This document shows, piece after piece, positions 2,323-17,842 of a stretch of 40,368 nucleotides of DNA. The notes under the pieces were generated by a model, which made no database searches, was not told where the DNA came from, and was given only the letters and a program-made list of their open reading frames with translations. A program made the position numbers and the translations under genes. Each line of letters starts with the position of its first letter. Positions within the stretch are counted from its first letter, which is position 1. Source of the stretch: a virus; the IMG/VR virus record IMGVR_UViG_3300043410_000763, positions 1-40,368 of that record, one strand, 5' to 3'.

Positions 2323-3647
2323 CATATTTGTTTAAACCTTATGATGGTGAGATTAAGAATGATACTGGTAATCCGTTACCAGTATCCAAAAATACAACTG
2401 TAAACTCAAATGAAAATCCAATTTATGTTCAAGGAACTTCAGATACAAGTTTCTTTGCACCTACTCAATCAGATGCCTTTGGCCGTTTGAGAGTTTCAAA
2501 CCCATTTACGTTATACGATCTTTCTCATCGTTATCAAGACACTGGACATGTGGCTGTTAAAACTACTGGTACTGCGACGAGCACACATGACATCAACTCA
2601 AGCACTATTAATATGACAGTTGGTACTGCCAGCGGTGATGAAGTTGTGAGAGAAACTAATCGTGTATTCGCTTACCAACCAGGAAAGAGTTTGCAGATTC
2701 TTACTACATTCTGTATGAATCCAGTAAAGACTAACCTTCGACAACGAGTTGGTTACTTTGATACCAACAATGGTGTGTATTTGGAAAGAAACAGTACTGG
2801 CGTTTATTTTGTTCTTCGTTCTAGTTCTGCTAATGGTTCACCAGTTGAGCGTCGTATTGAACAGGCTGATTGGAGTGAGAATACTTTCTCTGCACTAAAC
2901 TTAGATCGTGTTCAAATCCTATGGTCGGATATCGAGTGGCTTGGTGTTGGTTCTGTTCGTTGCGGTTTTGTTGTTGATGGTGCGTTCGTTCACTGTCATA
3001 CATTCCATAACGCAAATACAGAGATCTCTGCTGGTGTTCCACTAACAACTACTTACATGACAACTGCGTGTCTGCCACTTAGAACTGAAATTACAAATAC
3101 TGGAGCAACATCTGGTTCTAGTACTCTAAAGGCAATTTGCGCTTCAGTTATTTCTGAGGGTGGTTTTGAACTTCGTGGTCGTCCACGTAGCATTGGTCAT
3201 TTATTAAATTCACCGTACAGACTTGCAGTAATTAACACTTCATATCCAGTATTCAGTGTTCGCCTAAAAGCTGGAAGAGATGGTGCGATTGTTCTACCAA
3301 AGAACTTCTCTTTTGCACCATTGACTCAAGCAAACTATAGATGGAATCTAATTCAAGGTGTTACTACTGGTGGAACATGGATTGATGCAGGTAGCGATAG
3401 TTCTGTTGAGTATAATCTAACTGCAACCAGCGTAACATCTACTCAGTTCGTGTACGAACAGGGATATGTTCTAGCTACGAATCAATCTGTTGCTACACCT
3501 AGCACCGAGGTATTCCCATTCGCATTCCAGTTAGAGAGAAATACTCTTTCTTCTCCTAAAATGTATTATGAATTCATTTTAACCGTATCTACAACAGCTC
3601 AAAACCCAGATGTAGTTGCTTCTATTAACTGGGAAGAACTTACATAA
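2319..3647 (+). CDS. putative virion structural (appendage) protein
   Basis: This 442-residue, beta-rich, Ser/Thr/Asn-rich protein has few charged clusters. The segment FGRLRVSNPFTLYDLSHRY followed by the region around RETNRVFAYQPGKSL belongs to a protein type common in marine phage structural modules, so I call it a virion protein, perhaps a head or tail appendage. The precise location in the particle is unknown. Start ATG 2319 overlaps the upstream TGA and is preceded by GGAGA; the in-frame ATG at 2307 is less likely. A CTAAATAA late-promoter-like element follows at 3660, separating it from the next gene. Confidence 0.65.
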   Translation: MTYLFKPYDGEIKNDTGNPLPVSKNTTVNSNENPIYVQGTSDTSFFAPTQSDAFGRLRVSNPFTLYDLSHRYQDTGHVAVKTTGTATSTHDINSSTINMTVGTASGDEVVRETNRVFAYQPGKSLQILTTFCMNPVKTNLRQRVGYFDTNNGVYLERNSTGVYFVLRSSSANGSPVERRIEQADWSENTFSALNLDRVQILWSDIEWLGVGSVRCGFVVDGAFVHCHTFHNANTEISAGVPLTTTYMTTACLPLRTEITNTGATSGSSTLKAICASVISEGGFELRGRPRSIGHLLNSPYRLAVINTSYPVFSVRLKAGRDGAIVLPKNFSFAPLTQANYRWNLIQGVTTGGTWIDAGSDSSVEYNLTATSVTSTQFVYEQGYVLATNQSVATPSTEVFPFAFQLERNTLSSPKMYYEFILTVSTTAQNPDVVASINWEELT

Positions 3648-13472: not shown

Positions 13473-14816
13473 ATGGAAGTTGTGCATGGCATTAAGGTTG
13501 ACTACACTCGTGATTCGCTATTTGATGAACTAGGGAAAATACGATTAAAAGAAAGTTACATGAAAGATGAAGAAATTTCACCACAAGAAAGATTCGCATA
13601 CGTTAGCAGCAAATTTGGTAGCAATCCAGAACATGCACAAAGATTATATGATTATTCCAGTAAACACTGGCTTAGCTACTCAACTCCTATCCTCAGTTTC
13701 GGAAGAAGTAAACGAGGATTACCTATCTCTTGTTTCCTCAACTATATTGAAGACACAGCAGAAGGATTAGTAGATAATCTTTCTGAAACAAACTGGCTAT
13801 CAATGCTTGGGGGTGGTGTAGGTATTGGTTTCGGTATTCGTTCTGCCGATGATAAATCTACTGGTGTTATGCCACACTTAAAGATGTATGATGCATCTTC
13901 ATTGGCTTATCGTCAAGGTAGAACTCGTCGTGGAAGTTATGCTGCGTATCTTGATATCAGTCATCCTGATATTATTCAATTTTTAGATATGCGTAAACCA
14001 ACTGGTGACCAGAATATGCGTTGCCTAAATTTACACCATGGTATTAATATTCCTGATGCGTTTATGGAAATTATCGAAAAGTGTATGCTTGATCATGATG
14101 CTGACGATTCTTGGAATTTAATTGACCCAGCTTCTAATGAAATTCGTGAAACAGTTTCAGCTAGAGAATTGTGGCAAAAGATTTTAGAAATGAGAATGCA
14201 GACTGGAGAACCATATCTACACTTCATTGATGAATCAAATCGTAAATTACCTCAGTGGTTAAAGGATAAAGGTCTTAAAGTTAATCAATCAAATCTTTGT
14301 TCAGAAATCATTTTACCAACAAACGAACAACGAACAGCTGTATGTTGTTTATCATCTTTAAATTTAGAATACTATGACGAGTGGAAACAAGATCCTTTAT
14401 TTCTTTCTGATATTGCAGAAATGCTTGATAATGTTCTTCAGTATTTTATTGATAATGCTCCTGCCTCCATTGAGCGTGCAAGGTATTCTGCCTTACGTGA
14501 GCGCAGCATTGGTATCGGTGCTTTGGGCTGGCATGCTTTTCTTCAGCGAAACAATCTTCCCTGGGAATCGTCAATCGCAGTTGGACGAAACAAACAAATC
14601 TTCAAATACATTAGAGAACAATTAGATGCAGCGAATAAAAAACTTGGTTCCGAGAGAGGCGAGGCTCCTGATGTACAAAGTGAAATTCTTTTCGAAGATG
14701 ATTCTGGCAATTCCATTAGCGTTAAGTCTTCTGATTTTGTTACTGTTGTCCGAGGTGGTGAAGAAATGTCTATTCGTGCTTGTGCCGTCCTTGAAGGAGA
14801 TGATCTGAAAATGTAA
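13473..14816 (+). CDS. nrdA: ribonucleotide reductase large subunit, N-terminal piece (split NrdA-a)
   Basis: 447 residues covering the N-terminal two thirds of class I NrdA. It holds ISCFLNYIED (first redox Cys), NQSNLCSEIILPT (Asn-Cys-Glu catalytic triad) and AVCCLSSLNL (second redox Cys). The ATP-cone regulatory domain is missing. NrdA homology stops near residue 400 at RGEAPD. It is followed by a foreign tail of 47 residues (starting VQSEILFEDDSGN, ending LEGDDLKM) reminiscent of the end of an N-intein but lacking Cys1. An HNH endonuclease gene and then the C-terminal NrdA piece follow. All catalytic residues exist across the two pieces, so a working two-chain enzyme is plausible, as in Aeromonas phage Aeh1. 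AGAGG precedes the ATG. Confidence 0.92.
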   Translation: MEVVHGIKVDYTRDSLFDELGKIRLKESYMKDEEISPQERFAYVSSKFGSNPEHAQRLYDYSSKHWLSYSTPILSFGRSKRGLPISCFLNYIEDTAEGLVDNLSETNWLSMLGGGVGIGFGIRSADDKSTGVMPHLKMYDASSLAYRQGRTRRGSYAAYLDISHPDIIQFLDMRKPTGDQNMRCLNLHHGINIPDAFMEIIEKCMLDHDADDSWNLIDPASNEIRETVSARELWQKILEMRMQTGEPYLHFIDESNRKLPQWLKDKGLKVNQSNLCSEIILPTNEQRTAVCCLSSLNLEYYDEWKQDPLFLSDIAEMLDNVLQYFIDNAPASIERARYSALRERSIGIGALGWHAFLQRNNLPWESSIAVGRNKQIFKYIREQLDAANKKLGSERGEAPDVQSEILFEDDSGNSISVKSSDFVTVVRGGEEMSIRACAVLEGDDLKM

Positions 14817-14821
14817 AATCG

Positions 14822-14829
14822 CTAAATAA
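14822..14829 (+). promoter_or_regulatory. T4-late-like element before the homing endonuclease
   Basis: CTAAATAA in the 34-base gap between the N-terminal NrdA piece and the HNH gene, about 20 bases before ATG 14851. Free-standing homing endonuclease genes in T4-like phages often carry their own late promoter; this would express the endonuclease separately from early NrdA. Confidence 0.45.
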
Positions 14830-14850
14830 GCATTAGGAGCATATAATTAA

Positions 14851-15438
14851 ATGGAGCACCCAATGCTATACAGTAAGATTTACGATTCGATCATCGAACG
14901 AGCCAAGAACCGAGTTTTAACAGATTATTCAGAAAAACATCATATCTTACCTAAGTGCTTGGGTGGAACTGATACCCATGATAATCTAGTTAAACTTACC
15001 TTCAGAGAACACTTTATTTGTCACCAGTTATTATGTAAAATATACCCAGAGAATCAAAAATTAATCTTTGCATTTTCTTCTATGGTTCGAGTTTCTAGAA
15101 AAAACGCTAAACGATTTGATGTTCTAACTTCTAGACATTTCGAGATTGTTAAGAAAACTCTAGCACCTCATATGGGTAAATGGAATATTGGAAGAACTGC
15201 TTGGAACAAAGGTATCACTGGTGACGAATTAAAAGCGAATTATAAGAATGGTGGATTGACTCCACCAAAAATGAACGGATGGAAGTGGATTACTGATGGT
15301 GTAGTTAATAAAAAGATTCCACCAAATGTTGAAATTCCAGAAGGATGGATTAGAGGTCGTTCTGGTTTTAGTGAAAATAATCCAATGAAGAATAAAGAAA
15401 CATCTACAAAAAATGCAGAATTAAGGAAAAAGAAATGA
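14851..15438 (+). CDS. HNH homing endonuclease interrupting nrdA (MobE-like position)
   Basis: 195 residues. The HNH core reads EKHHILPKCLGGTDTHDNLV then LTFREHFICHQLL, with the paired His, Asn and His expected. NUMOD3-like DNA-binding repeats follow (PHMGKWNIGRTAWNKG; GFSENNPMKNKET). Such enzymes cut a target in related phages and spread by recombination. ATG 14863 (MLYSKIYD) has GGAG at 14853 and is an alternative start. It overlaps the C-terminal NrdA piece by four bases. Position and type match MobE in the split nrdA of phage Aeh1, though whether it is homologous needs an alignment. Confidence 0.9.
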   Translation: MEHPMLYSKIYDSIIERAKNRVLTDYSEKHHILPKCLGGTDTHDNLVKLTFREHFICHQLLCKIYPENQKLIFAFSSMVRVSRKNAKRFDVLTSRHFEIVKKTLAPHMGKWNIGRTAWNKGITGDELKANYKNGGLTPPKMNGWKWITDGVVNKKIPPNVEIPEGWIRGRSGFSENNPMKNKETSTKNAELRKKK

Positions 15439-16052
15439 AAGTTAAAAAAATAACAAAACAAGAATGGGCAGGAAACAGATTTTCACATTTAACTGCGATA
15501 GCACCAAATGCTTCTTCTTCCATTCTCATGGGCAATACTTCTCCTAGCATTGAACCTTATCGTGCCAATGCGTATCGTCAAGACACTCTTTCTGGATCGC
15601 ACTTAAATAAAAATCGTTATTTAGATGCAATCATCAAAGAACAATCTGTAAATAATAAAGAAGGATGGGTTGATGAAGTATGGTCTAGCATTATTGCCAA
15701 TGATGGTAGTGTTCAACATCTAGATTGGATGGACGACTGGACGAAAGATGTTTTCAAAACATCTATGGAAATTGACCAGCGTTGGGTAGTTCAACATGCA
15801 GCAGATCGTCAAGAATACATCGATCAAGCGCAGTCACTAAATGTATTCTTCCGTCCAGACTCCAATATTAAATACATTCATGCTGTTCACTTCCAAGCAT
15901 GGAAGCAAGGATTGAAAACAATGTATTATTGTCGCAGTGATAAGATTGCTAAAGCTGATAAAGTATCTAAGCGTATTGAACGTGAAGTTATTAAAGAGAT
16001 TGACCTAACAGCTCTAGCTGAAGGTAATGAGTGTTTAGCTTGCGAGGGATAA
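15435..16052 (+). CDS. nrdA: ribonucleotide reductase large subunit, C-terminal piece (split NrdA-b)
   Basis: 205 residues. After a short extension (MKVKKITKQEWAGN), homology to NrdA resumes at RFSHLTAIAPNASSSILMGN, with NTSPSIEPYRAN. The radical-transfer tyrosines appear in KTMYYCRSDK, and the C-terminal redox pair in ECLACEG, which reloads the active site with electrons from thioredoxin/glutaredoxin. No C-intein HN end is visible, so the pieces are probably joined by assembly rather than protein splicing. The ATG overlaps the endonuclease stop (ATGA), and GGAAAAAG is upstream. Confidence 0.92.
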   Translation: MKVKKITKQEWAGNRFSHLTAIAPNASSSILMGNTSPSIEPYRANAYRQDTLSGSHLNKNRYLDAIIKEQSVNNKEGWVDEVWSSIIANDGSVQHLDWMDDWTKDVFKTSMEIDQRWVVQHAADRQEYIDQAQSLNVFFRPDSNIKYIHAVHFQAWKQGLKTMYYCRSDKIAKADKVSKRIEREVIKEIDLTALAEGNECLACEG

Positions 16053-16053
16053 T

Positions 16054-16281
16054 ATGGATGCACATAAATTAGGTAACAAAATTTTGGATTTGTGGAGACA
16101 GGAGTTTAGAGATGCGATGACTTCTGGAACTTGTGAGCCAGGATCAGTTGCTGATATAGGATTATATGTTGACACTCCTTATGGAGTATATAAATTAGAT
16201 GATGTTTCCATCGATCCAGAATTTGGTATTATGTTAAATGTAAAAATTAAAGAATATAAGGCAGATTGTGAAAAAGAATAA
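16054..16281 (+). CDS. small acidic protein between nrdA and nrdB, unknown
   Basis: 75 residues, starting one base after the NrdA-b stop. Sequence features: an N-terminal helix with KILDLWRQEFRDAMTSG, then short strands (VDTPYGVYKLDDVSI) and a KEYKADCEKE end. No known motif. Its place inside the reductase operon suggests a link to nucleotide synthesis, but nothing in the sequence confirms this. It runs up to the start of NrdB. Confidence 0.6.
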   Translation: MDAHKLGNKILDLWRQEFRDAMTSGTCEPGSVADIGLYVDTPYGVYKLDDVSIDPEFGIMLNVKIKEYKADCEKE

Positions 16282-16288
16282 TACAAAA

Positions 16289-17257
16289 ATGACAGATGAG
16301 AGAACGTACTTTAAGCCGTTCAATTATCCATGGGCATATGAAGCGTGGCTAAAACATGAACAAGCACACTGGCTTCATACAGAAGTTCCGATGATGGAAG
16401 ACGTGAAAGATTGGAAGAAGAAATTAACTAAGGAAGAAAAACAATTCCTTACTAATATTTTCCGTTTTTTCACACAAGGCGACATTGACGTTGCTGGTGG
16501 TTATGTTAAGAACTATCTTCCATATTTTCCGCAACCAGAAATTCGCATGATGTTGTCTGGCTTCGCTGCACGTGAAGCGTTACATATTGCTGCATATAGT
16601 CATTTGATTGAAACGCTTGGATTACCTGAGTCCACTTACAATCAATTCCTTGAATATCAGGAAATGAAAGACAAACACGATTATGTTACCGAACTCAGTT
16701 CGAAAAACGGTACTCTTGAATCGACTGCAACACATATCGCTGTATTTTCTGCTTTTACAGAAGGTATGCAACTTTTTAGTTCTTTTATCATGTTGCTTAA
16801 TTTTCCTCGCCATGGTCTCATGAAGGGAATGGGTCAGATTGTTACTTGGTCTATCGTTGATGAAACAATGCACGCTGAGTCAATGATTAAATTATTTAAA
16901 GAGTACATTAAAGAAAACCCAGAAATCTGGAATGATGAATTGAAAAGTAAAATTTATTCAATCGCTGAGAAGATGGTTGAACTTGAAGATAAGTTTATTG
17001 ACTTATCATTCGCTGATGCTGATATGAGAAATTTGAAAGCTGAAGATGTTAAAGAATATATCCGTTATATTGCGGATCGTCGTTTAATTTCTTTGGGTAT
17101 GAAAGGTATTTTTAAGCGTAAGAAAAATCCACTTCCATGGGTTGAAGAAATGATCAACGCACCAGTTCACGGTAACTTCTTTGAGAATCGTGTAACTGAC
17201 TACGCTAAAGGTGCGTTGTCTGGTTCATGGGATGATGTATGGGGGAAACACCAGTAA
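16289..17257 (+). CDS. nrdB: ribonucleotide reductase small subunit NrdB
   Basis: 322 residues, starting at ATG 16289 (MTDERTYFKPFNYPWAYEAW). Di-iron ligands are visible in AREALHIAAYSH (Glu, His), TEGMQLF (Glu) and DETMHAESM (Glu, His). The Tyr four residues after the first His is the radical tyrosine, so this is a normal Tyr-radical class Ia subunit. It partners the split NrdA to reduce NDPs. The C-terminus should carry the NrdA-binding tail (GSWDDVWGKHQ). No strong Shine-Dalgarno is seen, so coupling with the small upstream gene is likely. It overlaps the next small gene by TAATG. Confidence 0.95.
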   Translation: MTDERTYFKPFNYPWAYEAWLKHEQAHWLHTEVPMMEDVKDWKKKLTKEEKQFLTNIFRFFTQGDIDVAGGYVKNYLPYFPQPEIRMMLSGFAAREALHIAAYSHLIETLGLPESTYNQFLEYQEMKDKHDYVTELSSKNGTLESTATHIAVFSAFTEGMQLFSSFIMLLNFPRHGLMKGMGQIVTWSIVDETMHAESMIKLFKEYIKENPEIWNDELKSKIYSIAEKMVELEDKFIDLSFADADMRNLKAEDVKEYIRYIADRRLISLGMKGIFKRKKNPLPWVEEMINAPVHGNFFENRVTDYAKGALSGSWDDVWGKHQ

Positions 17258-17416: not shown

Positions 17417-17842
17417 ATGTGGAAATATAAAGATAATATAGTTGAATCGTTACCTGATGAGTGCGTTGGGTTTGTATATGAAATTACGAACCTAACGAAT
17501 AATCGTAAGTATATTGGTAAAAAACTAGCCAAGTTCTCAAAGACATCTACTAAAACAGTTGTCTTAAAGAATGGCACGAAGAAGAAAAAGAAAATCAAGT
17601 CAAAGATTGACTCAGATTGGATGGAATATTATGGTTCTAGCATTGAATTGAACAAAGACGTTGAACAACTCGGGGTGGATATGTTCACCAGAGAGATTTT
17701 GTTTTTCTGTAAATCCAAGGCAGAGTGCTCATATATTGAAGCACGAGAACAATTTTCGAGAAAGGTATTAGAATCTGACGACTACTATAATGGTCAAATC
17801 TCTGTAAGAGTCCACGGTTCTCATATTAAAAACAAGCTATGA
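17417..17842 (+). CDS. GIY-YIG-like nuclease-domain protein
   Basis: 141 residues. The N-terminal part GFVYEITNLTNNRKYIGKK has the GIY...YIG arrangement (here GFVY and KYIGKK). Downstream come FFCKSKAECSYIEAREQF, with an invariant-type Glu in the third element, and DDYYNGQI with a late Asn. Similar proteins are conserved hypotheticals in T4-like phages and are not obviously homing enzymes, since they lack a separate DNA-binding domain. Nuclease activity is inferred from the fold only. It overlaps the next gene by ATGA. Confidence 0.7.
   Translation: MWKYKDNIVESLPDECVGFVYEITNLTNNRKYIGKKLAKFSKTSTKTVVLKNGTKKKKKIKSKIDSDWMEYYGSSIELNKDVEQLGVDMFTREILFFCKSKAECSYIEAREQFSRKVLESDDYYNGQISVRVHGSHIKNKL

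Follow-up and report, generated by a model that had tools for sequence, protein, structure and literature searches.

How can a ribonucleotide reductase large subunit (NrdA) that is encoded in two separate pieces still come together as an enzyme? This question is raised by a locus in a 40,368-nucleotide stretch of viral DNA (IMG/VR record IMGVR_UViG_3300043410_000763; "the window" below means this whole stretch), where nrdA is divided between two open reading frames (ORFs) with a homing endonuclease gene between them. The best reading is one of genes in pieces with both chains assembling, and we consider it probable, at roughly three chances in four (0.74), that the remnant of a non-splicing split intein clips the NrdA halves together non-covalently. 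The parts of the locus are as follows.

13473..14816, + strand: nrdA N piece, an ORF of 447 residues that comprises NrdA residues 1-400 with the catalytic-cysteine motif NLCSEIILPT, followed by the tail and a stop codon.
14673..14813, + strand: tail of 47 residues, a predicted Hint second lobe with a degenerate block B (NSISVKSSDFVTV) and an N4-like segment (MSIRACAVLEGDDL), without block A.
14851..15438, + strand: HNH homing endonuclease gene, MobE-like (PHROG 655), start probably at 14863.
15435..16052, + strand: nrdA C piece, 205 residues, with RFSHL..PNASSS, LKTMYYCRSDK and the C-terminal CLACEG.
15435..15476, + strand: C-piece head of 14 codons (MKVKKITKQEWAGN), basic, resembling the strand just before intein block F.

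A preliminary description of this DNA had proposed that the NrdA motifs are shared out between two ORFs around an HNH gene, and the Pfam and PHROG matches bear this out. The first ORF covers the Pfam Ribonuc_red_lgN/lgC profiles as far as position 337 and the last covers lgC positions 376-522. Of the NrdA motifs, the N piece holds the catalytic-cysteine motif NLCSE, and the C piece has the PNASSS loop, the YY pair and the C-terminal CxxC. Activity could not be expected of either piece on its own. The break falls where it had been placed (RGEAPD|GNRFSHL), with an open frame after RGEAPD that encodes exactly the 47 foreign residues described and the short new start preceding RFSHL in the C piece. 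Uninterrupted relatives read RGEAPDAVGTGNRFSHL across this site and thus four or five native residues have been replaced, while the last head residues (AGN) may be native. The intervening ORF (195 residues) is rightly called a homing endonuclease of HNH type (PHROG 655, E 1.3e-44; Pfam HNH only E 0.017), but the NUMOD domain also ascribed to it gave no match.

The tail is present in 15 further viral contigs, one of which (L002) is practically identical to the window's own sequence. All nrdA contigs are metagenomic fragments, and two are cut short: L010 runs out at its contig edge, and L015 does not reach the C piece. An HNH gene separates the nrdA pieces in L002, L007, L008, L009 and L013-L016, and a GIY-YIG-type endonuclease gene does so in L003 and L004 (PHROG 314, E 2e-10). 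The pieces are only 41 nucleotides apart in L005 and L006, whereas an HNH remnant plus another ORF lies between them in L011 and small ORFs in L012. Tail and head are retained in every nrdA locus in which both ends are covered. The endonuclease is dispensable to the split arrangement, which persists after the endonuclease has been lost or swapped. A sequencing frameshift, which would have undone the preliminary description, is excluded because 15 further contigs carry the tail and those of sufficient length repeat the two-piece layout with different intervening genes. Nor was a second nrdA found in the 40-kb contig or in the 15 related contigs, all of them fragments and one of 130 kb. Related small ORFs of unknown function accumulate between nrdA pieces in L009 (3784-4778), L012 (3168-3664) and L016 (3781-4352).

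By prediction, the 47-residue tail forms the second lobe of an intein Hint fold, corresponding to blocks B and N4 as these are named in the annotation of Pseudomonas phage MIJ3 (PMC6892783). A profile search of the nrdA tails against PDB sequences gave as its top match the Pab PolII intein (E 0.0012, across blocks B and N4), and two further intein chains matched at E 0.06-0.07. An AlphaFold2 model of the tail alone reached a predicted local distance difference test score (pLDDT) of 89.6, and its top 11 PDB matches in Foldseek were all inteins (TMq ~0.62-0.73), followed by hedgehog Hint; none had an E-value below 0.7, a weakness to be expected for 47 residues. VIA-align placed the entire tail on intein residues ~73-120 (best Z 5.8, mostly mini-inteins), and inteins or hedgehog Hint made up 17 of the 18 rows listed. 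Modelling of the whole N piece gave a weak result, with a mean pLDDT of 64, values below 35 in the N-terminal part of the barrel (its N half) and ~78 in the tail. Taken together, the predicted structure and the weak profile matches indicate that the N half holds the second lobe of the Hint fold only.

The catalytic parts of an intein are missing. There is no block A with Cys, Ser or Thr at the N junction, as the tail follows directly after RGEAPD and its third residue, Ser, is Gly in L016. The block-B TxxH histidine is absent from the tails, which have SSDF, SSDT or SSEK in its place, and blocks F and G with their terminal Asn and a +1 Cys, Ser or Thr are likewise absent, the head of about 14 residues ending in GN before RFSHL (GK in L014). 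Consequently, splicing is not expected. All 11 heads compared begin with a short MK..KI strand (two with two extra residues) and line up with the strand just before block F of intact inteins. The tails examined, from nrdA, dnaE and polB, are acidic (net -1 to -11), and those heads for which charge was computed are basic. Split inteins begin their association with a capture step between the C half and the second lobe of the N half, two parts of opposite charge (PMC11923092, PMC11766414). A literature search for degenerate or vestigial split inteins, judged by title, returned nothing relevant.

Similar tails occur on other split genes. A query with the tail of L013 gave few matches, none individually significant, which included DnaE N pieces, matched at their ends, and a true split intein of Pseudomonas jumbo phage PolB, matched in its N half. 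The dnaE of Cellulophaga phage phiST consists of two adjacent genes with the tail ..NYKLTLEDGSIVELPEGTVVKIIRNKKEISIFIHDIIEGDDLIKY and the head MKIINIEQNTAPKLVNG, and that of Tenacibaculum phage Larrie is split likewise, with a tail 43% identical. A 484-kb phage has a split polB with the tail VEFEDESEMNIDFNETYLVMRDGMKMKVKGKELQEEDELVIED and the head MKTKKIKNIPESKLNQDG, and in the dnaE of Bacteroides phage BS-TP1 a Dda-like helicase gene lies between tail and head (L126 1390-4620), replacing the endonuclease as cargo. The dnaE tail was found in 30 viral contigs and 10 Bacteroidales genome contigs. Bacteroidales phages have longer dnaE heads, whose final residues are HG|S or GG|S in place of the HN|S expected of an intein; this may represent a dead block G.

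Profile-profile comparison (hhalign) of nrdA and dnaE tails gave E-values of 3e-8 and 1e-7. Against Pfam, Intein_splicing was the family matched by most dnaE tails (11 of 14, best E 0.0015), with matches below the Pfam cut-off and to the middle of the model only. A combined tail profile run over 22,691 ORFs had a sole match with E<1 outside its training set, the N half of the MIJ3 split intein (E 0.00023), which is supportive rather than independent since that locus had originally been fetched by tail similarity. The phiST and Larrie tails as queries found no relatives in viral contigs, a profile search of these contigs with mixed tails gave no usable pattern, and one candidate dnaE tail (L165) was rejected on closer look. 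Overall we lean towards the view that a widespread class of non-splicing cassette (Hint second lobe, cargo, C strand) invades replication genes that phages cannot do without (nrdA, dnaE and polB) and mends the damage by non-covalent clipping rather than by protein splicing, with a cargo (HNH, GIY-YIG, helicase or methyltransferase) that may be exchanged, or lost while the clip stays.

Some observations on these loci stand apart. The PolB of the 484-kb phage (L117 79-3132; L122/L121; LR756508) contains two ordinary-looking cis inteins besides the split with the half-Hint tail, and the NrdA of Vibrio phage 1.161.O (L001 2681-5470) has a cis Hint insertion at another site, after YKQGE. In MT835494, an unverified record, two HNH genes together with one for a DNA methyltransferase interrupt dnaE (L125 900-4500), and the head frame does not continue into the dnaE C piece.

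Substitution patterns point to a maintained enzyme and a mobile cassette. Across split loci the ratio of nonsynonymous to synonymous substitution rates (dN/dS) is 0.085 for the N piece and 0.05-0.10 for the C piece, values that indicate strong purifying selection and thus that both nrdA halves are maintained. The tail DNA of the window is 93-99% identical to that of L003, L004, L005, L007 and L008, compared with 63-77% for the adjoining 300 bases of nrdA, and dS is ~0.15 in the tail versus ~2 in the adjoining nrdA. In a tree of the enzyme part the split loci are scattered among intact ones, and the branches with good support require a minimum of three switches between the two states, which could be gains or losses. 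Together, the tail identity, the dS values and the scattered tree fit homing of the cassette between genomes, and the tail identity shows that the cassette has spread horizontally. In the last 20 codons of the dnaE tail, dN/dS is 0.063, like that of the adjoining polymerase, which indicates purifying selection.

The preliminary description had matched the locus to the split nrdA of phage Aeh1 and its mobE gene, and the match holds in part. Aeh1 also has nrdA in two ORFs around a MobE-family HNH gene, with motifs divided and extra tails on both pieces, and the HNH protein of the window is 45% identical to Aeh1 MobE over 117 residues (E 3e-26). However, Aeh1 nrdA was rejected as a direct homologue of the split in the window, as break point and tails differ. 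Aeh1 nrdA-A ends directly behind NLCIEIALPT, which puts its break about 117 residues before that in the window. The N tail of Aeh1 is basic and its C head acidic, a charge order opposite to that of the window, with no sequence similarity between the tails; no Hint similarity was found in the Aeh1 tails. The split NrdA of Aeh1 has been reported to form active enzyme (PMC2988022) and provides the functional precedent. The preliminary description had also overlooked that the 47-residue tail resembles a Hint lobe, that such tails recur on other split phage genes and that the arrangement does not depend on the endonuclease. Because the HNH proteins are related and the breaks differ, MobE-type endonucleases are tied to nrdA splits at two points.

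Crona et al. are said to have found in 2011 that the Aeh1 tails are essential for assembly, and Dassa reportedly described fractured genes with split inteins in 2009. Such genes, for example MIJ3 polB, resemble the split nrdA of the window: each piece bears a Hint half, and an endonuclease gene separates the two. The MIJ3 PolB intein has blocks A, N2, B, N4, F, G and VHN and is expected to trans-splice (PMC6892783), whereas the window retains no more than the B/N4 lobe and a single C strand. Another replication gene that is divided in two and accompanied by an endonuclease gene is gene 43 of Aeromonas phage 25, reported to be active (PMC2988022), but 43A has no visible Hint-like tail and gp43A/B was rejected as a carrier of one.

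We propose that a mobile cassette of Hint second lobe, endonuclease gene and short C strand has split nrdA, so that the N piece now ends in the lobe and the C piece begins with the strand. Each NrdA half would be translated from its own gene, the two genes being neighbours. The tail, which is acidic, and the head, which is basic, would pair in the manner of a normal split intein at its capture step and so keep the NrdA halves together for their shared barrel to close. No peptide bond would form, since the intein lacks its catalytic parts; its association half would have been retained and its splicing half lost. We infer the physical pairing of tail and head, the enzyme activity and the lack of splicing.

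Several points weigh against this proposal. The heads lack the length that a homology test needs and match no Pfam intein family, and a broader profile (A4) places P-type ATPases and PCNA above inteins. In the close set the nrdA tail has a dN/dS of 0.84, with little synonymous change after recent spread, and purifying selection on it is accordingly not shown. This ratio would suit tails that are functionless leftovers of insertion on halves that assemble via their own surfaces. We regard that as unlikely, since three unrelated genes have kept the same fold, each of them at the split ends, the dnaE tail is under strong purifying selection, tails are retained after loss of the endonuclease, and the Aeh1 tails are reportedly essential. 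That nrdA is simply decaying and non-functional would agree with its interruption, yet it is quite improbable given a dN/dS of 0.05-0.10 in both pieces, the retention of all motifs and the intact nrdB and thyX alongside.

Covalent joining of the halves by an active split intein is more doubtful again. The tail does resemble part of a Hint fold, and PolB of MIJ3 contains a true split intein, but the tail begins at about intein residue 73, the N junction lacks both a block A and a nucleophile, the block-B histidine is replaced, and neither a block F/G nor an HN precedes the C extein. Least plausible is that an RNA intron or ribosome bypass unites the frames into one chain. Group I introns are frequent in phage ribonucleotide reductase genes (PMC3653736), but only chance Rfam intron matches were found around the break, the 41-nucleotide gap in L005 and L006 is too short for a self-splicing intron, and most heads are preceded by a purine-rich, ribosome-binding-like sequence and an ATG.

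Two further features accompany the locus.

16268..17257, + strand: nrdB small subunit gene, uninterrupted.
14829..14867, + strand: candidate RNA hairpin around the HNH ribosome-binding site, weak (-10 kcal/mol, z -1.44).

Directly after nrdB, the window (17417-17842) encodes a SegE-like GIY-YIG protein (Pfam PF19835, E 1e-31), whose best PHROG label, NAD synthetase, is probably a mislabel. The TATAAATA late-promoter motif is not enriched in the window; in L013 a T4-type late-promoter-like TTTTATAAATA lies upstream of the HNH gene (about 3163-3180), where the window has only CTAAATA.

Split inteins are usually regarded as splicing devices. In at least three enzymes of distant phages, it seems, only the capture half of such a device has survived, serving as a protein clip. 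If true, this would constitute a second route, besides that of Aeh1, by which a selfish gene neutralises its own damage, would provide a source of small natural heterodimer tags, and would account for the split dnaE genes of Bacteroidales phages.
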